Below are positions 5,561-37,302 of a DNA stretch of 64,000 nt, piece by piece; within the stretch, counting starts at the first letter, position 1, and each line of letters opens with the position of its first letter. This stretch comes from Lachnospiraceae bacterium (GTDB lineage Bacteria; Bacillota; Clostridia; Lachnospirales; Lachnospiraceae), in assembly GCA_024697225.1 (NCBI GenBank), contig JAILGA010000136.1, positions 16,259 through 80,258 of the forward strand. The letters run 5' to 3'. Made by a program: the position numbers and the translations under genes. Under the pieces are notes generated by a model that had not been told where the DNA came from, ran no database searches, and saw only the letters and a list, made by a program, of their open reading frames with translations.

Positions 5561-5692
5561 TGCCGGCGAGAGGCCGGCAGGCATGTCAAAAACAAAAAAT
5601 CTGTTTTGACATGCCGAGAACCCGGCCGGCAGGCATGTCAAAAACAAAAAATATGTTTTGACATGCCGAGAACCAGGCCAGCGGGCATGCAA
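5561..5692. repeat. 52-bp palindromic repeat array B, same family as array A in inverse orientation
   Basis: GGCATGTCAAAA (5580, 5632) alternating with TTTTGACATGCC (5604, 5656); period exactly 52. Confidence 0.9.
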
Positions 5693-5717
5693 CAACAATA
5701 CCGGGGATTTCTTTTGC

Positions 5718-9754: not shown

Positions 9755-10438
9755 TTATCCTGCGGGATTTCCGCCCACGATACCGCCTTCAGCACCGCCT
9801 GCTCTGGAGTCGATATTCATGGTTCTGATGGGATGCTGTTTTTCGGGGTCGTAGCCAATATCAAAGATCTCGATGACCTCCGCCCCGAAAATGTCATGCA
9901 TATACGAATAAAGATTGAAATTCTCCACCTCTCTGCGCTGCTTCTCTATTATCTGCTTTTTCAGTTCTATGCGCGTCGCAGTGATCCACTTATCTATCTC
10001 TTCGATGTGATCGCTGTTTCTTTCGAGTTTCTCATAACAAATATCCATAGAGAGCATCATCAGCTTCATGTTCTTCTGATATATCTCTCTGGGAATATCT
10101 ATCAACTCGTCCTGATATTGCTCGATCCTGTCGTTGCAGTCGTTGATCAGCCGTGTGTGTTCATCAAGCTCTTTGGAGGCTTTTGACTTCTCTCCCTCCC
10201 TGGCCACTCTGTCACGAAGCTCCATTATTTCGCTCATGAGTTTCTTCTTGAGCGCCTTCACCTTTTTCTCATCATCGCGCAGCTTGGCCTGCTTCTCCAT
10301 GAGAGCATTGATATCATCCGCGAGTTCATCTATCTCCGGTGTCTTCTCTCTCTGGGTAAAAAGCTTGTGCCATTTGTTATCAAGCGTCAGTATAGGGAGA
10401 TCCTTGCCCTCAAGTGCCGCCCTGAAATCAGCTTTCAT
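9755..10438 (-). CDS. conserved coiled-coil protein of unknown function
   Basis: 227 aa, long heptad-like Lys/Glu-rich region, same strand as neighbours. Confidence 0.65.
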   Translation of the reverse strand: MKADFRAALEGKDLPILTLDNKWHKLFTQREKTPEIDELADDINALMEKQAKLRDDEKKVKALKKKLMSEIMELRDRVAREGEKSKASKELDEHTRLINDCNDRIEQYQDELIDIPREIYQKNMKLMMLSMDICYEKLERNSDHIEEIDKWITATRIELKKQIIEKQRREVENFNLYSYMHDIFGAEVIEIFDIGYDPEKQHPIRTMNIDSRAGGAEGGIVGGNPAG

Positions 10439-10463: not shown

Positions 10464-10865
10464 TCACGTAGTCTCTTCGTGCCGCCCTTTCACGCTCATG
10501 AGCGTCTCTATGAGTGCATCTATTTCCCTCTGCGAGAGGACCGTAAGATCACCGACGCCGGTATCGGCATATTTGTGTTTTCCGTCATACTTTCTGATCT
10601 CGAACAGTGTTTCCACAAGAGAATCGATCTCCGGCTGCGTCAGCACACCTTGAGGTTCGGAATGGAACGCAGGCATCTCGATGTCTCCCTTCCTGTCCTT
10701 TGCCTCCCTGAGCGCATCGATCAGAGCATCTATCTCCTCCTGCGACAACACGCCGCCCTTGGCTGCTATCACATCGGTGAGTGTCTTTTCACCGCCGTCC
10801 TCACGCACCTCGTTCAGCGCATCAATAAGCGCATCGATCTCTCTCTGTGTTAATACTCTCTGCAT
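10464..10865 (-). CDS. tandem FliM/FliY N-peptide (LSQxEIDALI) repeat protein, putative CheY/REC docking hub
   Basis: Motifs VLTQREIDALIDAL (res 4), VLSQEEIDALIDAL (39), VLTQPEIDSLVETL (74), VLSQREIDALIETL (109); period exactly 35 aa. Confidence 0.85.
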   Translation of the reverse strand: MQRVLTQREIDALIDALNEVREDGGEKTLTDVIAAKGGVLSQEEIDALIDALREAKDRKGDIEMPAFHSEPQGVLTQPEIDSLVETLFEIRKYDGKHKYADTGVGDLTVLSQREIDALIETLMSVKGRHEETT

Positions 10866-10964
10866 CCGTAACCTCCGGTCATCTTGTGGCGGTCAATCTC
10901 CGCAGTCAACAGCTTAAGTTATTACAGTATACCACAAAAAGCACCTGCGTCAAAGAAAACACCG

Positions 10965-13900
10965 TCATGTATCTATATATTTTGCCAGCGTCTCCTCAAG
11001 TTTCCCCGAATTCACAGGTTTGGACAGATAGCCGTTAAAGCCCTCTCCCAGATAATACTCCGATGCATCACCGACTGCATTTGCCGTAAGAGCAATGACC
11101 GGCGTCTCGCTGTCTGTTTTTCTGATCTCGTGCAGGGTCTCTATCCCGTCCATCTCCGGCATCATGTGATCCAACAGCACTATATCAAAATGTCCGCCGG
11201 CAAGCTTTTCCAGACACTCCCTTCCGCTCATCGCGGTCGTAAGCCTCACTTTCGTCGGTCTAAGCAGCCCCTCCAGTACCTTGAGGTTCATGATGTTGTC
11301 ATCTACCGCCAGAACCTCAGCTTCAGGAGCAATAAACACAGGTTTGTACTCCTCCCTGCTGCCGGCCGTTTCATCATCGATCCTGAACTCTCCGATGGGA
11401 GTTGCGTCTATCACCTTCTGCTCCAGCGAAAAACCAAACGTAGACCCCTCACCGTACACGCTCTCGCACCTCAATTCGCCTCCCATCAGAGCCACGAACT
11501 GCCTTGAGATATCGAGTCCCAGACCTGTCCCCTGGATACCGCTGTTCCTCTTTTCATCAAGCCTCTCAAACGCCGAGAACAGCTTGTCCATATCCTCCTG
11601 TCTGATGCCTATTCCTGTGTCGCTCACGCTGTAATCCATGCGGACCATATCTCCTTCTCCGGGCACGGCATTTATCCTAAGGGTGAAGGAACCTTTTTCC
11701 GTATACTTTACGGAATTGGTCAGAAGATTCAGCAAAACCTGGCGTATCTTCCCGTCATCGCCGTACAGACGCGACGGAAGCCCGGGATCGATCTCGGTGT
11801 TGAACGTGAGATCCTTAGCCGCGCTTTTCACAAGGATCATCGTGATGAGTCCCCTGATCAGGGCGCGCGTGTCGTACTCCTTCTCAACCAGGTTCATCTT
11901 CCCGGACTCGATCTTGGAGAGATCCAGTATATCGTTGACTATGGAAAGCAAAGACTCCGATGCGTGCATGATGTCTCTCGCATAACCGGTCACCGTGGGA
12001 CTCGCATTCTCCCTGAGGATCAGCTCATCCATACCCATTATCGTGTTTATGGGCGTTCTGATCTCGTGACTCATATTGGCGAGGAATCTGGACTTGGCAC
12101 TGTTTGCGCGCTCGGCCTCATCCCTTGCCTGCCTGATCTCCTCATACTGCCTGTTGATTATCGTGGTCCGAAGGAACCACCACACAAAGAAGCCCGCAAA
12201 GAATATCGCCAGCGCCACAGCCGTGAGCTTGAACGCGAGCAAATCCACAAGCCTCGCGTCCTTCCTGATCTTAAAGGTTTCCTCCCTGAGAAGGGAATAA
12301 TCCGTGCTGTCAATGGTCTGTACATGAAGAGTGTAATCGCCGTAGGGAAGATTGGTATAAGACAACGGCACAAGCTCATTCTGATAAACCGTAAAGCCCT
12401 CATCGGCTGCACCCTCCAGGTACATCCTGACCAGCGGATTGGAGAGCGTGTAGTTGAGCACCGATGCATGAATCTGTATCCTTCTCGCGTTCTTAGGGAT
12501 AACATATACCCCGTCGTCATCCGCGGAGATTTTTGCATCATCGCAGGTGACACTCCCCAGCCTGATAAAGTATGAGGTGTCAAAGGAATTGTAATCGAGC
12601 GTGGATATCTGTCTCACACCATCCGTGCAGCAAAGAAGCAGTGTGCCGTTATTATCCAGCATTGCATTCCATGCATTTGCCGTAAGCGTAGTGTCAAAGC
12701 CTCTCGAATAATCAAGCAGCGCATATCTGTACTCACCGTTTTCCACGAGATCCTCGAGATGCACTATGAAAATCCCGGCACTTGACGAGATCCATGCCTC
12801 ATTTCCGCCGACAACGCGCACATCATAGTTGTTGCTGTAGGGGAAAGCATCCAGTTTCGTCACCGATACTCTGTCATCGTAGTAGAGGGCGTTGCTGGTC
12901 ACGTAGATAAATCCCCCCCTGCATGGCACTATCCTGAGCACTACCAGAGTATCCAGTCCGTCTTCGTTTCCCTTGTGACCTATGACCTTCTTGTTCTTTA
13001 TGTAATATATGCCCGCGCCGTCCGTGCCCGCTATTACAGTATTGTTATCCTCAACCATCGTGAGTATCTGCGGTGCGTCCAACCCCTCGTTCTCGCCGAG
13101 CACTCCCGTCACCCTGTCGTTTTCGATATAGGTCAGGCCCAGATTGCTCGCTGCCAGTATCGTTCCATCCGAGAGCTCCATAACATATCTGAACCTGCCG
13201 CCCATAGTTCCGACAGATTCATTGAACTCCTTTGTCGTCCCGTCCGGACTGATCTTCACCAGACCTGCCTTTCCATATGTGCTGACCCACACATTTCCCT
13301 TACTGTCCGAGGCTATGTGTCTGACTCTCACACCTTCAAACTGCTTAAGGAACGGATAGGATCTCCTGACAAATGTATTCTTGTCAAGCACCTCAAGTCC
13401 GCTGTCCATGCCGATATACAGATCATCTCCCTCGACAAGAAGCGCGTTTACCACATCACTGTCTATCCCCGCAAGTACAAATACATTCACAAAGGGATTT
13501 TGGGAATACTCAAGGACTCCCTGCTTGTTTGATACGAACCACACATTGCCCTGATAATCTATAATGGCATCACTCACGGAACTGTCAAATCTGTCCTGCA
13601 TCAGCGGTGTCACATATCCTTCATCGGACACATAGCCCAGGCCGTTTTCCGCACAGAAAAAATATCCGCTGGTGGCTTCGTCATAAACTATGTGGTTAAA
13701 GTATGAAATATCTCCTGTGCTTATGCTCCTTAACCTTTTTATCCTGGAACCGTCAAATCTCATCCTGATCATTTCCGTCGTCGATGTGCCCACAAGATAT
13801 CCGCCCTTTCCGTCGGCGGAAACAGCCTCATAATACACACCGTCCTCATCGAGTGTATCGGTTTCGATCAGAGTTCTGTCCTTAAGGAAAAAGAGCAGAC

Positions 13901-14504
13901 CTCCGTTGGTGACGCCCGCTATCACACCCCTGCCGTCATGAGTCATGGATCTTACACCTGTCAGATCGCTCCATTCCTCATGAGTGTCAATATTTCCGCT
14001 GTCCGCGTCTATGACAGACATATAGGACACAGTACCCACATAAAGATCTCCTCTGTCATTTTCGCACAGAGACCTTATGGAATTTGAGGCCAGTCCGTCC
14101 CCGGCAGTGTAGAAAATAAGTTCATCGTCTGCAACATCATAGCAGCACAGACCGCTGTCATTGGTGCCTATCCACAGTCTTCCCCTGCTGTCCGCGTAAA
14201 GCTCCGTGACGCTGTTTATGCGTTCATCGAGCGAGATCTTTTCAAATCGCGAACCGTCATATCTGTAGAGCCCCGAATAAGTTCCGGCCCACAGATAGCC
14301 GTCCTTAGTCTGCGCTATGGCATTTATCTCGGCAGAAGCCAGACCATGATCGGCTCCGTACGATCTCGCCTCGTATTCTGCAATAAAATCCCTTGATGAC
14401 AACCCAGGATCATCTGCCGCATTAGCTGCCGGGCATGGAAGTATAAGTAATAAAACAACGATCCAGAATACGGCTGCTGCATTCTTTAGCATAGCTGATC
14501 TCAT
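10965..14504 (-). CDS. hybrid sensor histidine kinase: regulator propeller repeats, Y_Y_Y-like domain, TM, HisKA, HATPase, REC
   Basis: Propeller-like DGYLWAGTYSGLYRYDG/RLWIGTNDSGLCCYD; NMSHEIRTPINTIMGMDELIL; GTGLGLDISRQ; VLLDHMMPEMDGI. Confidence 0.93.
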   Translation of the reverse strand: MRSAMLKNAAAVFWIVVLLLILPCPAANAADDPGLSSRDFIAEYEARSYGADHGLASAEINAIAQTKDGYLWAGTYSGLYRYDGSRFEKISLDERINSVTELYADSRGRLWIGTNDSGLCCYDVADDELIFYTAGDGLASNSIRSLCENDRGDLYVGTVSYMSVIDADSGNIDTHEEWSDLTGVRSMTHDGRGVIAGVTNGGLLFFLKDRTLIETDTLDEDGVYYEAVSADGKGGYLVGTSTTEMIRMRFDGSRIKRLRSISTGDISYFNHIVYDEATSGYFFCAENGLGYVSDEGYVTPLMQDRFDSSVSDAIIDYQGNVWFVSNKQGVLEYSQNPFVNVFVLAGIDSDVVNALLVEGDDLYIGMDSGLEVLDKNTFVRRSYPFLKQFEGVRVRHIASDSKGNVWVSTYGKAGLVKISPDGTTKEFNESVGTMGGRFRYVMELSDGTILAASNLGLTYIENDRVTGVLGENEGLDAPQILTMVEDNNTVIAGTDGAGIYYIKNKKVIGHKGNEDGLDTLVVLRIVPCRGGFIYVTSNALYYDDRVSVTKLDAFPYSNNYDVRVVGGNEAWISSSAGIFIVHLEDLVENGEYRYALLDYSRGFDTTLTANAWNAMLDNNGTLLLCCTDGVRQISTLDYNSFDTSYFIRLGSVTCDDAKISADDDGVYVIPKNARRIQIHASVLNYTLSNPLVRMYLEGAADEGFTVYQNELVPLSYTNLPYGDYTLHVQTIDSTDYSLLREETFKIRKDARLVDLLAFKLTAVALAIFFAGFFVWWFLRTTIINRQYEEIRQARDEAERANSAKSRFLANMSHEIRTPINTIMGMDELILRENASPTVTGYARDIMHASESLLSIVNDILDLSKIESGKMNLVEKEYDTRALIRGLITMILVKSAAKDLTFNTEIDPGLPSRLYGDDGKIRQVLLNLLTNSVKYTEKGSFTLRINAVPGEGDMVRMDYSVSDTGIGIRQEDMDKLFSAFERLDEKRNSGIQGTGLGLDISRQFVALMGGELRCESVYGEGSTFGFSLEQKVIDATPIGEFRIDDETAGSREEYKPVFIAPEAEVLAVDDNIMNLKVLEGLLRPTKVRLTTAMSGRECLEKLAGGHFDIVLLDHMMPEMDGIETLHEIRKTDSETPVIALTANAVGDASEYYLGEGFNGYLSKPVNSGKLEETLAKYIDT

Positions 14505-30713: not shown

Positions 30714-31502
30714 TCAGATCATCGTCTTCTTGGCTATGAAGTATTTCTCGAGTTCCTCAAGCAGCTCTTCCCTGCTTATGGTCTTAAGGAGGTATCTCTC
30801 GGGCTTCAGTCCTATAACCTTTTTAATGCTCGCTTTGTCACTCTTGCCGGTGAGAAACATTACCGGAATGGAGCTGGTGCCGACCTCACTCTTAAGCATT
30901 TCCAGAACACTCGGTCCTGATGTGACAGGCATCTCGTAATCAAGAAGCACCAGATCCACCTGATTTTTGGCAAGCCACGTAATCGCCTGCATACCGGAGT
31001 TGACTATCGAAACCCGGTAACTGTCCTTGAGCCACGAATGAACCATTCTCAGGTAGGTCACATCATCATCAACCACAAGAATGCTCTTTTTCCTGTTCTC
31101 TATGGCCTTCAGATCACTTAAACATCTCACCTTGTCAAGAAGAGCATGCATGTCTATGGGGCGTTCAAACCAGGCCGCGAGGTTCTCCTTGGGCAGCACC
31201 GATGTCGCCATGTTAAACTCATCCGGTGTCCCTATGAGTATGACCATCTTGTCCTCCGCGACGCTCATATCCTTAAGAAACACCAGCAGGTTCATTCCGC
31301 CGGTTATATCCTCATCCATATACAATATGAAAATACTTACCTGATCCGTGTACGCTGATATACTTTCGACATCCGCCTTTGAATATGACACTTCATAACC
31401 CGCATCCCTCAGATTTTTCTGAAGTGCCTTTGCTATGAACGCCTCCTTGGCGCTTATCACCAGGACTTTATTGTTCTTATCGGAATTTTCGCCGCCAAAC
31501 AT
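30714..31502 (-). CDS. REC dyad protein, no output domain
   Basis: KSILVVDDDVTYLRMVHSWL...DLVLLDYEMPVTSG...MFLTGKSD plus preceding receiver-like half. Confidence 0.85.
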   Translation of the reverse strand: MFGGENSDKNNKVLVISAKEAFIAKALQKNLRDAGYEVSYSKADVESISAYTDQVSIFILYMDEDITGGMNLLVFLKDMSVAEDKMVILIGTPDEFNMATSVLPKENLAAWFERPIDMHALLDKVRCLSDLKAIENRKKSILVVDDDVTYLRMVHSWLKDSYRVSIVNSGMQAITWLAKNQVDLVLLDYEMPVTSGPSVLEMLKSEVGTSSIPVMFLTGKSDKASIKKVIGLKPERYLLKTISREELLEELEKYFIAKKTMI

Positions 31503-33430
31503 TATCCATTTACCTCTTCAGCCATTCTTTCTATTTCTTTTCTCGACAGGGGTCTTGAAAAATAATTGCCCTGATACCAGTTTATCTTAAGCTTCTTTGT
31601 GCGCTCAAACTGTTCTCTCGTCTCAACGCCCACAACAACAACCTCGTGTCCCAGCTCATGTATCAGTCTCACGCTGTTTTCAAGGACCGTCCAGCCCTCT
31701 TCGCCCTTTTCCGCCTCCCACAGGAGACGTCTGTCCATCTTTATCATATCCAGATCCAGCGAAAAGATCGAATGCATGTTGGAATATCCGGTTCCGTATG
31801 CCTCCATTGAGAACATGTACCCCTCACTCTTAAGCTCCCTGATGACCGCATCGAGAGAGTTATAATCAAGCGAGGCAACAGTTTCAGTTATCTCAAAGTT
31901 GATACGCGACGGATCCACTCCATGGGCTGTTACTATTTTCTTTACGTTTGCGGCAAATCCCGCACTCATGCATTGTATCACAGACAGGTTCACATTTATA
32001 TACCTGATGCCTAATTTATCAGGTATCCCGCTGACAAAGAAGTTGCAAACCTCATCAAGCGTATATTCCCCTATCTGCTCTATCATACCGTTTCTCTCTG
32101 CGGCCGGTATGAAATCTCCCGGGAAGAGTTCTCCGAACTCCGGATCGCTCAGTCTTATGAGAGATTCCGCGGAGTATATGGTCCTGCCGTCAGGAGTATA
32201 CACCGGCTGATAGTAAACCCTGAAATTGTGTTCCGCAAGTCCCCTGTGAAGTGCCGTCTCGAGATTTGCCCTGTAAAGTATGGCTCTCAGATCGTCGCCC
32301 ACAAGTATCGAACCCGATTCACAGGTAGGCAGAGGCGATTCGCACATAAGAAGGACATCACTTGCGGATTTGAGCTCATCCGGTATGGCTGCGTACATTA
32401 TCACGCCCTGTATCTTTATGGCTTTTCCGTTAAACTCCCATCCCTCTTCAAATTTCCAGGCGATCATCTGCGACAGGAATCTGACATGTCCTTCCTTGCC
32501 CCTCAGATCCAGAAGTATAAAGGAAGTCTGCGTAACCCTGTAGATCATATAGCGGTGATAGACCGATGTGAGGTAGTCGGACACCATACTTATCACCTGT
32601 TCTGTGTTGGACGCGCCAACCACCCTTTGAAGCGCTTCCGTATTTGTCAGCCGCACGCAGATGCAGTAAAACTTGCGGCCGGCGCCGAAATAGCTCTCCA
32701 TATCCTGCATCAGTGCACTTCTGTTGTATACGCCTGTTTCGGTATCAAGCCTGTCTTCATCAAATTCAAGGGCGAGCATCAGTCCCATAAGGGCAATGGC
32801 TTCCCCGAACAACTCCGTGTTGGTATCAGGATAAAAAAGCTGCACCGCTATACCCAGACCGCCTATTAACAGGGAGATCATGAGGATCAGCCGTCTCTTT
32901 TTCGTCGTCCCCGCCCATTGGGTCATGAACTGTCTCATGGCCAGCACTATATAGAAAAACCCGGTGGCGTATACGATATAAAGCGCTACACCTCTCACAA
33001 AAACAGATGAGTCGTCAAAATCCCACACCAGATGCAGAAAGGGATTTAACAGTACCAGCAGTTCGCATACCGCAAAAGGCATGATATACAGGACGTGCAT
33101 ATATGTTCTTACGCGCTGGAAGCTTCGGGTCGCACTGAGTGAATAATAAAACAGCAGCGGCGGCAGAACGCCGTGCAGGACAAAATACAGATAATTGGAA
33201 GCAAGAGCCGCGTTAAGAGCTGTACGTCTTACCGCCATGTCTCCGTAATTGCAGTTGTAAATTATATTTGCAAACGCCGTCAGGCCGAGCGAAATGGTCA
33301 TCACAATATACAGCACATTCTGCGGCCTGTCCGTGTGACGCTGTGCCAGAGTAAAGATAAGGCACGACATCGAAACAAGTATTGTGGCCTGGAACAAGGC
33401 GGTCTCATTTACATAGTTCAGTATCGTCAT
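31502..33430 (-). CDS. 7TM-type membrane protein with degenerate GGDEF and degenerate EAL
   Basis: DTETGVYNRSALMQDM, GGDEF position reads TQTSF; ESLIR and NFEITET retained but DDFGTG reads EAYGTG. Confidence 0.88.
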   Translation of the reverse strand: MTILNYVNETALFQATILVSMSCLIFTLAQRHTDRPQNVLYIVMTISLGLTAFANIIYNCNYGDMAVRRTALNAALASNYLYFVLHGVLPPLLFYYSLSATRSFQRVRTYMHVLYIMPFAVCELLVLLNPFLHLVWDFDDSSVFVRGVALYIVYATGFFYIVLAMRQFMTQWAGTTKKRRLILMISLLIGGLGIAVQLFYPDTNTELFGEAIALMGLMLALEFDEDRLDTETGVYNRSALMQDMESYFGAGRKFYCICVRLTNTEALQRVVGASNTEQVISMVSDYLTSVYHRYMIYRVTQTSFILLDLRGKEGHVRFLSQMIAWKFEEGWEFNGKAIKIQGVIMYAAIPDELKSASDVLLMCESPLPTCESGSILVGDDLRAILYRANLETALHRGLAEHNFRVYYQPVYTPDGRTIYSAESLIRLSDPEFGELFPGDFIPAAERNGMIEQIGEYTLDEVCNFFVSGIPDKLGIRYINVNLSVIQCMSAGFAANVKKIVTAHGVDPSRINFEITETVASLDYNSLDAVIRELKSEGYMFSMEAYGTGYSNMHSIFSLDLDMIKMDRRLLWEAEKGEEGWTVLENSVRLIHELGHEVVVVGVETREQFERTKKLKINWYQGNYFSRPLSRKEIERMAEEVNG

Positions 33431-36400
33431 TTACCGTCCCCCTGATCTCCCAGCGCCTCATTGATGATCCCCGTCATTTTGTCCCAGTCCAGAATCTCAA
33501 GTGCCTCCCTGAGACTCTGTATCCGTGCGGCATCGGTCTTCGGCAGCACATAGCCCGCCATTTCATCCAGAACGAACGATGAATCGTCAAAATCCATGGA
33601 GGCCACAAAATCCGCCAGGGCCTGATAGCCTTCCTTCAGCGTGACATCATCTATCGGCGGCTCATCGCTTCCTTCTTTCTCTTTTGCCCCGTCATCCGCC
33701 GAAAAGACCTTCTTCAATCTTGCGTCGATATCCTCAAGATGATCCAAAAGTACGGGCGTTTTGCTCTCTATCGTCTCCGTATCGCCGGCATCGCCCGCCT
33801 GCTCGAGCACCCAGGCCTCCTCACCCAGATCAAGCGCTCCTATCACCCTCGAAGTACTCTTTAAGCTGTGAACCCTTATTGTATAGTTTTCCCAGTCCTC
33901 CTCTTCAAAGAACTGTCTTACTTCTTTTATCTTGGAGGCAAGCGAACTCACATAGATCTTCAGGGCATCCAGATATCCGTCAATGCCGCCGCATCTGACA
34001 AGACCCTCCTTAATGTCTATCTCGGGCGCATTCTCCCTCAGCAGGCTTATCACGCCGTTTTCGGGCTCTCCGGAGGGAGCTTCTTCATTTGCCGCACCGC
34101 CTTCTCCTGACCCCGTGAAGATCACCTTGTCCTGAGGAAGATATTTGATCAGCGTCTGTTCCAGCTTTCTGGTCTCGATAGGCTTGGTCAGATAGTCATC
34201 AAAGCCCTCTGCGAGGAACTTCTCTCTCGCCCCGGAGAGCGCGTTAGCCGTGAGGACTATGACAGGCGTCTCGCGGTTCTTATTCTCCCTTGCATCTCTC
34301 AGGCGCTTAAATGTCGTGGTGCCGTCCATCTCAGGCATTCTGTAGTCAAGGAATATGCAGTCATATTTGGTCACAGCCGTCATTTCAAGGCACTCCATGC
34401 CGCTTATGGCTGTATCTATGATGAGTTTTGTCTTCTTCAGAAGTCCCTTTACCACCGTCAGGTTCATGGGCGTATCATCGACGACCAGGATACGCGCATC
34501 CGGTGCCGTGAAGGATTCGCGGTATTCCACTCTGCTCTCGGTGGTGATCCTGTATCTTTCCTTGAGGTTTCCGATCGGCTTCCTGTCGAGCACCATTTGG
34601 GGGAATCTGATGCTGAAGGTGCTGCCCTGTCCGTATACGCTCTTTACATCGATATCGCCGCTCATAAGCTTCAGCAGGTTCTGGGTTATGGCTAGTCCCA
34701 GCCCCGTGCCCTCGACCGTACGGTTCTTATCAATATCCAGTCTCTGGAAGGTCCCGAAGAGATTCCCCATATCCTCTTCTTTGATACCTATACCCGTATC
34801 GGTGATGTCCACCAGCAGCTGTATGGTATCCTCGTCAAGATATCTTCCGTGCACGGAGAGCTTAACATAGCCCTCATTGGTATATTTGACAGCATTATTC
34901 AGGATGTTGACGATGATCTGCCTTATCCTCATCTCATCGCCGAAGAGATCCTCCGGAAGAGTCTCATCGATATCAAGCCTGAATTCCAGGTTTTTCTGCG
35001 CGATCTTTACCTGTATCATATTTGCGACATCGTTTATGACGGAGGACAGGCCGTATTCAACAGGCACGATTTCCATGTTGCCCGCTTCAATCTTGGAGAA
35101 GTCAAGGATATCATTGATCAGCGACAACAGGGTATTTCCTGCTCTTTCGATATCCCTTGCATACGAGATTATATTGCCGTCGCCACACTCCCTCAGTATC
35201 ATCTCGTTCATACCCAGTATCGCGTTGATGGGGGTTCTGATCTCATGGGACATATTGGCAAGGAAGCTTGATTTTGCTTCACTCTTGGCTCTTGCCTGCT
35301 GCTCCTCCCTTCTTGCAACCTCGGTGACTCGAAGGATCGATATCAGCTCATTCTGAGTGACCGGCTTGGAATAATAATCTCCCTGAAGATAATCAACATC
35401 CAGTTCCGAGAGCCTGTCGACCTGCGCCTGAGTCCTGATGCCGCGGATAAGGATCTGTCTGTGCATCTGGGATATCATGCGCACGCTGTTCTCGACTATG
35501 CGGTAGCCCAGATCATCGTCCCTGCCGCCGTCGCTGTCCAGCATCAGCTCCACGTCCATATTTACGACGTCAAAATGCATTTCAGTCAGCGACTGCAGGT
35601 TGGAATCACCCATTCCGAAGCGGTCTAGCGAAAGCTTGAACCCCATCTCCCTCATTGTGCCTATGACCTGCTTCAGCAGAGGATAATCGCCCGCTGTGGC
35701 AAATTCCCTCAGCTCAAAGTTTATGAAGGAGGCATCCACACCGTATTTGCGTATGTACTTTTTAAGATCCTCAAGGAAAGAGGGATTCAGGCACTGATGA
35801 GCGGAGATGCCGACATTTATGCGCTGCAGTCCCATCTCCGTGGGGATACCGCTGGAAAGGAACAGGCATATTTCCTCAAAGATCAGGGTGTTCAGTCTCT
35901 CCATGATGTCGCTTTTGGCGGCTATGGGCAGGAAGTCCTCCGGATACAGCACTTCCAGTTTGGAATCAAGGAGCCTGAACTGGGCCTCAGCGGAATGTAT
36001 CGATTTGCTCTTAAGATTGTAGACCGGCTGATAATAAATCTCAAAATTGTGCTCCGCAAAACCCTTGACGAGCGCCTCCTCAATCTGAGCATCTCTTTTG
36101 ATAAACTTAAGTTCCTCGCCCGTGAGTATCCTTCTCCCCTCGGATACCGGTATGGCACAGTCGAGCATAAGCATCACATCCTCAACAGAACGGTATTCCT
36201 CGGGCATGGCGGCTATCAGCAGCACGGCCTTGAGTCGCATATCCGCCCCGTTTCCCGTCCAGGGCGCGTCAAATCGTCTGGTTATCTCGTATGCCAGATT
36301 TCTTACCTTTTCCGCGTCATAATCCTTGCATAGAAGCAAAAACGAAGACTGCGAACGATAAATATTATACTTGTCATATATCCCTGCCAGATAATCGGCC

Positions 36401-37302
36401 ACATCCTTAAGTACAGCGTCGGAATCGCCCGAACCGGTCACGCGCTGGAGCATATCGGCATTTGTGATCCTTATGCATATCATTGATGCCTTGATCTTAA
36501 GCCTTAAGAGATTGGCCACATCCGCAGCGAGTGCGCTTCTGTTGCAGACACCCGTAGCCGTATCAGTCCTGTCATCCTCCTTTTCGACGGTAAAGAGGAT
36601 TCCGCTGAACGCCATGGCCTCGAACATCAGCTCAACCCTCAGCTTTATGTTCACCATCTGCAGTACGACTCCCAGGATGGCTATACCGAAGCTGTACAGC
36701 AGGGCCCACCTTCTTCTGAAGGTCAGCATTTTCCAGTACCTCAGCAGATGCACAATGGCCAGAGCGATGTAGAGTCCCGATACCGCATAGAGTACCGCTT
36801 CGCCCCAGCCGCGGTTCATCTGCTGATTCTGATCATAATAGTACACAAAATGAACCATGGGGTTTATCAGCGCCATTATCTCGATCAGGATACACGGGAT
36901 CATCGTTATGAACTGCCGCAAACGGCTGTGGGCATATATAACCCCGCTCACCATGGCGACATAAAGATAGAACATGACCGGAAGCAGCGTGTGGATCACA
37001 AAATAGATATACTGAGAGGTTTCCATTATTAAACGTGCAGTTATATCCATCGCTGCATACTCTCTGGTAAATACGACAGCTATCGAGGTAGCTGAGCTGA
37101 TCACCGTGAATATGAGCAATAACGAAAACACCCAGTTCTGGGCCTTTTTATTCGGTATCTCGATCGCATGATAAATGAACGTAGCAAGGCAGATCACCGT
37201 TGCTGCGATGAAATACGAAGACTCGTAATAATGTTTCAGAAAAACATCCATCAGTGGTCCGCTATCTCCGTTCATGCATAAAAATACACAATAATTATAC
37301 AT
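33427..37302 (-). CDS. multidomain receptor: 7TM, degenerate GGDEF, degenerate EAL, HisKA, HATPase, REC, HPt, C-terminal module
   Basis: DTATGVCNRSAL; AEAQFRL; NMSHEIRTPINAILGMNEMIL; GTGLGLAITQNL; CIFLDYRMPEMDG; RVHSLKSTSRVIG. Confidence 0.92.
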   Translation of the reverse strand: MYNYCVFLCMNGDSGPLMDVFLKHYYESSYFIAATVICLATFIYHAIEIPNKKAQNWVFSLLLIFTVISSATSIAVVFTREYAAMDITARLIMETSQYIYFVIHTLLPVMFYLYVAMVSGVIYAHSRLRQFITMIPCILIEIMALINPMVHFVYYYDQNQQMNRGWGEAVLYAVSGLYIALAIVHLLRYWKMLTFRRRWALLYSFGIAILGVVLQMVNIKLRVELMFEAMAFSGILFTVEKEDDRTDTATGVCNRSALAADVANLLRLKIKASMICIRITNADMLQRVTGSGDSDAVLKDVADYLAGIYDKYNIYRSQSSFLLLCKDYDAEKVRNLAYEITRRFDAPWTGNGADMRLKAVLLIAAMPEEYRSVEDVMLMLDCAIPVSEGRRILTGEELKFIKRDAQIEEALVKGFAEHNFEIYYQPVYNLKSKSIHSAEAQFRLLDSKLEVLYPEDFLPIAAKSDIMERLNTLIFEEICLFLSSGIPTEMGLQRINVGISAHQCLNPSFLEDLKKYIRKYGVDASFINFELREFATAGDYPLLKQVIGTMREMGFKLSLDRFGMGDSNLQSLTEMHFDVVNMDVELMLDSDGGRDDDLGYRIVENSVRMISQMHRQILIRGIRTQAQVDRLSELDVDYLQGDYYSKPVTQNELISILRVTEVARREEQQARAKSEAKSSFLANMSHEIRTPINAILGMNEMILRECGDGNIISYARDIERAGNTLLSLINDILDFSKIEAGNMEIVPVEYGLSSVINDVANMIQVKIAQKNLEFRLDIDETLPEDLFGDEMRIRQIIVNILNNAVKYTNEGYVKLSVHGRYLDEDTIQLLVDITDTGIGIKEEDMGNLFGTFQRLDIDKNRTVEGTGLGLAITQNLLKLMSGDIDVKSVYGQGSTFSIRFPQMVLDRKPIGNLKERYRITTESRVEYRESFTAPDARILVVDDTPMNLTVVKGLLKKTKLIIDTAISGMECLEMTAVTKYDCIFLDYRMPEMDGTTTFKRLRDARENKNRETPVIVLTANALSGAREKFLAEGFDDYLTKPIETRKLEQTLIKYLPQDKVIFTGSGEGGAANEEAPSGEPENGVISLLRENAPEIDIKEGLVRCGGIDGYLDALKIYVSSLASKIKEVRQFFEEEDWENYTIRVHSLKSTSRVIGALDLGEEAWVLEQAGDAGDTETIESKTPVLLDHLEDIDARLKKVFSADDGAKEKEGSDEPPIDDVTLKEGYQALADFVASMDFDDSSFVLDEMAGYVLPKTDAARIQSLREALEILDWDKMTGIINEALGDQGDGK

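Follow-up and report, generated by a model that had tools for sequence, protein, structure and literature searches.

A small Lachnospiraceae protein with four FliM-type CheY-docking motifs is a candidate CheY-P decoy or buffer

Introduction

In the standard picture of chemotaxis, CheY-P docks on the motor protein FliM or FliY, on CheZ where it is present, and on its kinase. Phosphate-sink CheYs, for example those of R. sphaeroides and B. burgdorferi, are receiver domains that take phosphoryl groups. The N-terminal CheY-docking peptide of FliM is represented by PDB entries 1F4V and 4IGA.

The LSQXEIDALL peptide of FliM binds CheY-P, and the FliM N-terminus (FliM-N) is disordered until it does so (PMC6700473). 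Among the residues that map into this motif, L6, Q8, I11, D12, and L14 are tabulated as CheY contacts of E. coli FliM-N (PMC3774744), and PMC9126983 cites Ahn et al. 2013 for a structure that pairs activated T. maritima CheY with the FliM N-terminus. Here we describe a gene encoding four such peptides and little else, located in a 64,000-nucleotide stretch of the genome of a flagellated rumen Lachnospiraceae bacterium (the window). No description of stand-alone docking arrays was found in the library searched, which is short of most subscription papers.

Results

The array gene (positions 10464..10865, minus strand) encodes a protein of 133 aa with four FliM-type CheY-docking motifs, as judged from the open reading frame, a match to a FliM model, homologs, and selection. 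The motifs, all read from the minus strand, are VLTQREIDALIDAL (residues 4-17; 10815..10856), VLSQEEIDALIDAL (residues 39-52; 10710..10751), VLTQPEIDSLVETL (residues 74-87; 10605..10646), and VLSQREIDALIETL (residues 109-122; 10500..10541). They start at residues 4, 39, 74, and 109, a spacing of 35/35/35, and their consensus is VL[ST]QxEID[AS]L[IV]xxL. The NCBIfam FliM model TIGR01397 was matched in three separate stretches, each time through its N-terminal positions (E=2.6e-11), with a score of 43.3 bits that lies below the family cut-off of 219.6; the match reaches no further than the first 20 residues of FliM. The next biologically meaningful NCBIfam match was the FliY model NF005995. Reading frame, motif positions, and the TIGR01397 match thus confirmed the original prediction of a 133-aa protein with four FliM-type motifs at 35-residue spacing.

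A Pfam scan of the 133 aa returned sub-threshold matches only. The protein did not match the FliM middle or C-terminal FliMN_C/SpoA domains (PF02154, PF01052), the CheZ helical phosphatase domain (PF04344), or a receiver domain with its acceptor Asp (PF00072), and no CheC-like phosphatase domain (PF04509 or PF13690) was found in it. The proposal of a stand-alone, tetravalent set of docking peptides that lacks a FliM/FliN core therefore stands, as neither PF01052 nor PF02154 is matched. Across the 2.8 Mb genome, six sites fit a degenerate DNA pattern for EID[AS]L[IV/M], and four of these lie inside the array gene; a reversed control pattern fits a single site. The four-motif array is not due to chance. 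The four copies have 8-12 of 14 residues in common, yet only 27-31 of 42 bases, so their likeness has been kept by selection and does not reflect a recent duplication.

Eleven four-motif homologs, the window protein counted, were collected, all from Lachnospiraceae. Six come from other species of the genus (42-60% identity) and were gathered by whole-protein similarity, and four more from the family (L027, L064, L085, and L119) were reached with the EID[AS]L pattern. Another array, L101, shows the first two motifs only because its locus is cut. The homologs can be aligned over their length. Their synonymous sites are almost saturated, whereas non-synonymous substitutions are held back: the median pN/pS is 0.52 for the gene as a whole, 0.23 for the motif 14-mers, and 0.77 for the linkers. 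By these substitution patterns, the reading frame is a real gene whose motifs are under strong purifying selection.

The array is rare. Its profile was found in 7 of the 79 genomes of the genus, the window's own genome counted (a possible eighth, L008, proved to be a weak single-protein match and not an array), and in 2 of the 397 genomes sampled across the family. Among 295 genomes sampled from the order, only the window's own genome carries it; the other match, L130, is a FliY. With so few bearers (7/79 in the genus), the gene is dispensable for chemotaxis in this group. It should be noted that the two-motif pattern used on GTDB genomes demanded GAG in the first motif, so that arrays with only GAA there were missed, and also A or S after EID. 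Most of its 104 matches were discarded as low-complexity serine-aspartate repeats, coiled coils, or FliY proteins whose second EIDAL is the start of the CheC-like domain. A search of plasmids gave no match, and two pattern scans of viral contigs did not find true arrays.

The equivalents of FliM residues L6, Q8, I11, D12, and L14 are invariant in all 44 motif copies of the 11 homologs, an invariance that was in part selected for, since four of the homologs came through the EID[AS]L pattern. Position 15 is I or V, and positions 5, 7, 9, and 13 vary. The best PDB match of the array family profile was 4IGA chain B, the T. maritima FliM peptide DVLSQEEINQLIEALM (E=0.0046), and both peptide and array have the extension LIEAL. 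The stand-alone CheY of the window's own genome (L199) is identical to T. maritima CheY at 82 of 117 positions (70%), with 1TMY and 4IGA chain A as its best PDB matches; from residue 86 on, the two differ at eight positions. Judged by these resemblances, the array motifs very probably dock CheY. The same 2.8 Mb genome gives 52 receiver-domain matches, and the array's actual partner might be any one among them.

The original prediction noted that the window shows no flagellar gene, and none was seen there; the genome, however, encodes a full flagellar and chemotaxis set elsewhere. Outside the window we found cheA, cheW, cheB, cheC, cheD, cheV, cheY, a FliA/SigD-type sigma factor, fliY (MDGMLSQDEINALLNG), and fliM (ADVLSQSEIDALLNG). 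These names come from reading the sequences; CheV, FliM, and FliY were also matched by family models. A suspected break in fliM was rejected, as the gene is intact and has a non-ATG start. All array-bearing genomes examined have two FliM/FliN-domain proteins, FliM and FliY. Because both occur in every array-bearing genome tested, the proposed decoupling of the array from the flagellar switch is not supported, although the co-occurrence inside the genus is itself weak evidence, as nearly all its members are flagellated.

Stronger flagellar support comes from a second family, here called docking-pair proteins and seen only in flagellated genomes. These proteins of ~180 aa (for example L224:1504-2055, L226:1495-2064, and L233-L242) have two N-terminal FliM-type motifs at a spacing of 23-26 residues and, after these, an additional domain of some 110 aa at the C-terminus. 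They align to array motifs 2-3 with an hhalign probability of 97. Pfam and NCBIfam hold no family of their own for them, and a fold search of a docking-pair model against the PDB gave nothing better than E=0.12. We found the family in 17 of 299 sampled Lachnospiraceae genomes, belonging to 17 genera, and 3 of the 17 copies have in-frame stops. FliM/FliN domains are present in 17/17 of these genomes, against a baseline of 152/299 (hypergeometric P=6e-6, in a test that is not fully independent because the genera are related). The docking-pair family is an uncharacterised candidate chemotaxis component in many gut bacteria.

Across the 11 homologs, the spacing between motifs 1 and 2 is 35 (once 34) and that between motifs 3 and 4 is always 35, whereas motifs 2 and 3 lie 28, 29, 33, 34, or 35 residues apart, so that two pairs of motifs are the best description of the protein. 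The predicted 35-residue period accordingly holds within the pairs and fails between them, where it runs from 28 to 35. Linkers 1 and 3 hardly vary in length and are conserved, and the sequence of linker 3 is kept in the near clade (YDGSQTFADTGAGSLA). The expectation that linkers keep their length and not their sequence was right for the length of linkers 1 and 3; it fails for linker 2, whose length varies, and for linker 3, whose sequence is kept in that clade. Constant pair spacing together with conserved linkers suggests more than beads on a string. The fixed pair spacing is the main reason for keeping, as the main rival of the decoy or buffer reading that we prefer, a chemotaxis scaffold that would bring multiple CheY-P to CheC, FliY, or CheV, or arrange them 35 residues apart.

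Proteins in which docking motifs are multiplied on a CheY-P phosphatase also speak for a scaffold. The FliY proteins L130 (859-2385) and L225 (820-2292), both from Lachnospirales, have four tandem motifs 36-39 residues apart and three tandem motifs, respectively; in both, the peptide is absent at the N-terminus and placed between the CheC-like and FliN domains. In a Rhodothermus-assigned MAG, a CheZ (L060:2-979; PF04344, 41 bits) ends in four EIDALF-type copies (EIDAL/EIDRL), ~16 residues apart. These phosphatase-borne arrays, however, belong to other proteins and other genomes, and the array's own 133 aa lack a second interaction domain, which makes a scaffold an unlikely, if serious, alternative to a CheY-P decoy or buffer.

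Longer EIDAL arrays, all cut by contig ends, were seen in two further phyla. A Planctomycetota contig (L047) encodes about twelve GQDEIDALMASLGG-type copies, most of them repeating every 35 residues and joined by Ala/Pro linkers; no FliM/FliN domain was seen in its genome, a possibly incomplete bin of 2.3 Mb. The Verrucomicrobia bin OFTM300 (L095 and L074) has many VDQSEIDALLNGG copies at period 39. Linkers in these arrays are Ala/Pro- or Gly/Ala/Asp-rich. The FliY, CheZ, Planctomycetota, and Verrucomicrobia arrays share the motif alone with the window protein and, from their sequences, look like independent inventions.

Separately, a membrane protein present in 74 of the 79 genus genomes (L019:381-2156; G000:C46 in the window's own genome; relatives L172-L186) has an acidic cytoplasmic tail with a [DE][IL]DA[LI]M motif, as seen in the ~seven copies of the protein that were read. 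In the array clade, this tail contains repeated DPDDIAALFAAM segments. It is possibly a second multivalent docking protein.

The array gene lies between a hybrid histidine kinase gene (10965..14504, minus strand; Reg_prop propeller, HisKA, HATPase, and REC) and a gene for a coiled-coil-like protein of 227 aa without a family (9755..10438, minus strand), which begins 26 bp past it. A sigma-70-type promoter-like site, TTGACG-16-TATACT with TG before the -10 (10926..10953, minus strand; 10/12 matches), lies ~60 bp upstream of the array start codon, in the gap after the kinase gene; the region contains as many sites of this kind as chance would give. TATAAT-like hexamers were read by eye upstream of several homologs, and no sigma-D-type promoter was found upstream of the window gene or its homologs. 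The downstream gene is possibly co-transcribed with the array and was not seen beside the homologs. In four genus members, the array adjoins a convergent symporter-like gene (the L147 array was placed from a protein-similarity search). Given its own promoter-like site and neighbors that are not conserved, the array gene appears to be an independent transcription unit.

These surroundings bear on the original prediction of a functional link to the adjacent hybrid kinase, REC-dyad, and HPt genes, by which the array would be their docking hub, independent of flagella. The genes are indeed adjacent and on the same strand, and 52 receiver-domain matches would offer such a hub ample partners. However, in the ten other genomes the array is never next to a counterpart of these kinase, REC-dyad, or HPt genes, it has its own promoter-like site in the window, and array-bearing genomes are flagellated. 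Moreover, cheV lies ~5-6 kb from the array in G038 and G015; the matching cheV region of the window's own genome (CheV 90% identical) is on another contig and is without an array. We judge the kinase to be a neighbor and not part of the array system, and a hub of this kind to be improbable.

Other features of the window were recorded in passing. Two genes (33427-37302 and 31502-33430) encode large signaling proteins with a membrane N-terminus and GGDEF/EAL-like segments, the first also with histidine kinase, REC, and HPt-like parts, all as read by eye. Tandem repeats of 52 bp with ACATGCC/GACATG segments occupy 513-957 and 5571-5698, apparently outside likely genes, and those at 513-957 have higher-order periods of 104 and 156 bp.

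AlphaFold2 placed helices of the array at residues 7-22, 42-58, 77-95, and 112-132 (16-21 residues), that is, at the four motifs, and gave no confident tertiary fold (pLDDT 48, pTM 0.30). This model is compatible with helices that fold upon binding and proves nothing; at such low confidence (pLDDT 48), it only suggests disorder of the free protein. The modeled helix lengths, and amphipathic helices that run past the FliM peptide (EIDALIEALxxVK), would also fit a helical domain that serves structure or oligomerisation and has come to resemble FliM-N by convergence. That is very improbable: the invariant residues are CheY contacts and not a heptad, the model has no confident packing, and the CheY-bound T. 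maritima FliM peptide has the same LIEAL extension.

Finally, a broken fragment of fliM or fliY, as a match limited to the N-terminal 20 residues of FliM could suggest and as the original prediction had allowed for, was already refuted by the homologs and can be dismissed with near certainty, since the gene has four divergent copies of the motif and is conserved across species in 11 genomes under purifying selection, and intact fliM and fliY are found elsewhere in the genome.

Discussion

In our view, the array probably serves the flagellar pathway as a tetravalent decoy or buffer of CheY-P. The free protein would be small, soluble, and for the most part disordered. Each of its four short amphipathic helices, a copy of the FliM N-terminal peptide, should fit into the alpha4-beta5-alpha5 groove of CheY in its phosphorylated form. 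A single chain would have room for as many as four CheY-P, and would merely hold them, because monomeric CheY gains no avidity from multivalency. In this way, the array would be a competitor of the motor proteins FliM and FliY, which have single docking peptides; it would lower free CheY-P and thereby raise or damp the switching threshold of the flagellar motor. This reading builds on conserved and selected motifs, identity at the FliM contacts, the lack of a FliM core, receiver, or phosphatase domain, and co-occurrence with FliM, FliY, and CheY, all taken from sequence. From these we infer CheY-P binding, and buffering over scaffolding. Weighing against it are the rarity of the gene, the fixed pair spacing with its conserved linkers, the many receiver domains of the genome as other candidate partners, and the failure to find a sigma-D promoter that would tie the array to motility genes. 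The strict phospho-sink that had also been proposed is unlikely, as the array has no receiver domain; having neither a receiver nor a phosphatase domain, it fits a decoy or buffer better than the usual phosphate sink.

If this is true, motor sensitivity would be set in a new way, by a soluble tetravalent protein dedicated to competing for CheY-P, and the array could serve as a genetically encodable CheY-P sponge. More broadly, and more tentatively, multivalent CheY-docking arrays may form an unrecognised, repeatedly evolved layer of chemotaxis control that routes or titrates CheY-P to or from the motor, a possibility to which we give slightly less than even weight. Such a layer would take in stand-alone decoys, docking-pair proteins, and the arrays on FliY and CheZ.

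Among known systems, FliM-N, the N-terminus of the TIGR01397 family, is the closest: the array shares its LSQxEID[AS]L[LI] core and contact residues. FliM-N is helical when bound and disordered when free (PMC6700473, PMC3774744), a likeness that we propose for the array. Unlike FliM, the array has four copies and neither the middle nor the C-terminal FliMN_C domain, and its helix continues with EALxxV where FliM-N ends at LLNG. FliY likewise carries the docking peptide, in three to four tandem copies in L225 and L130; the array differs in lacking the CheC-like phosphatase and FliN domains. CheZ is another case of a short C-terminal docking peptide outside the motor, fourfold in L060, where, unlike in the array, the motifs are fused to the phosphatase domain, ~16 residues apart, with unrelated linkers.

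As the phosphate-sink CheYs do, the array would cut the CheY-P available to the motor, although, unlike them, it has no receiver domain. With the docking-pair proteins, it shares FliM-type motifs that align over its motifs 2-3; these proteins differ in the closer spacing of their motifs (23-26 residues) and in their ~110-aa C-terminal domain.
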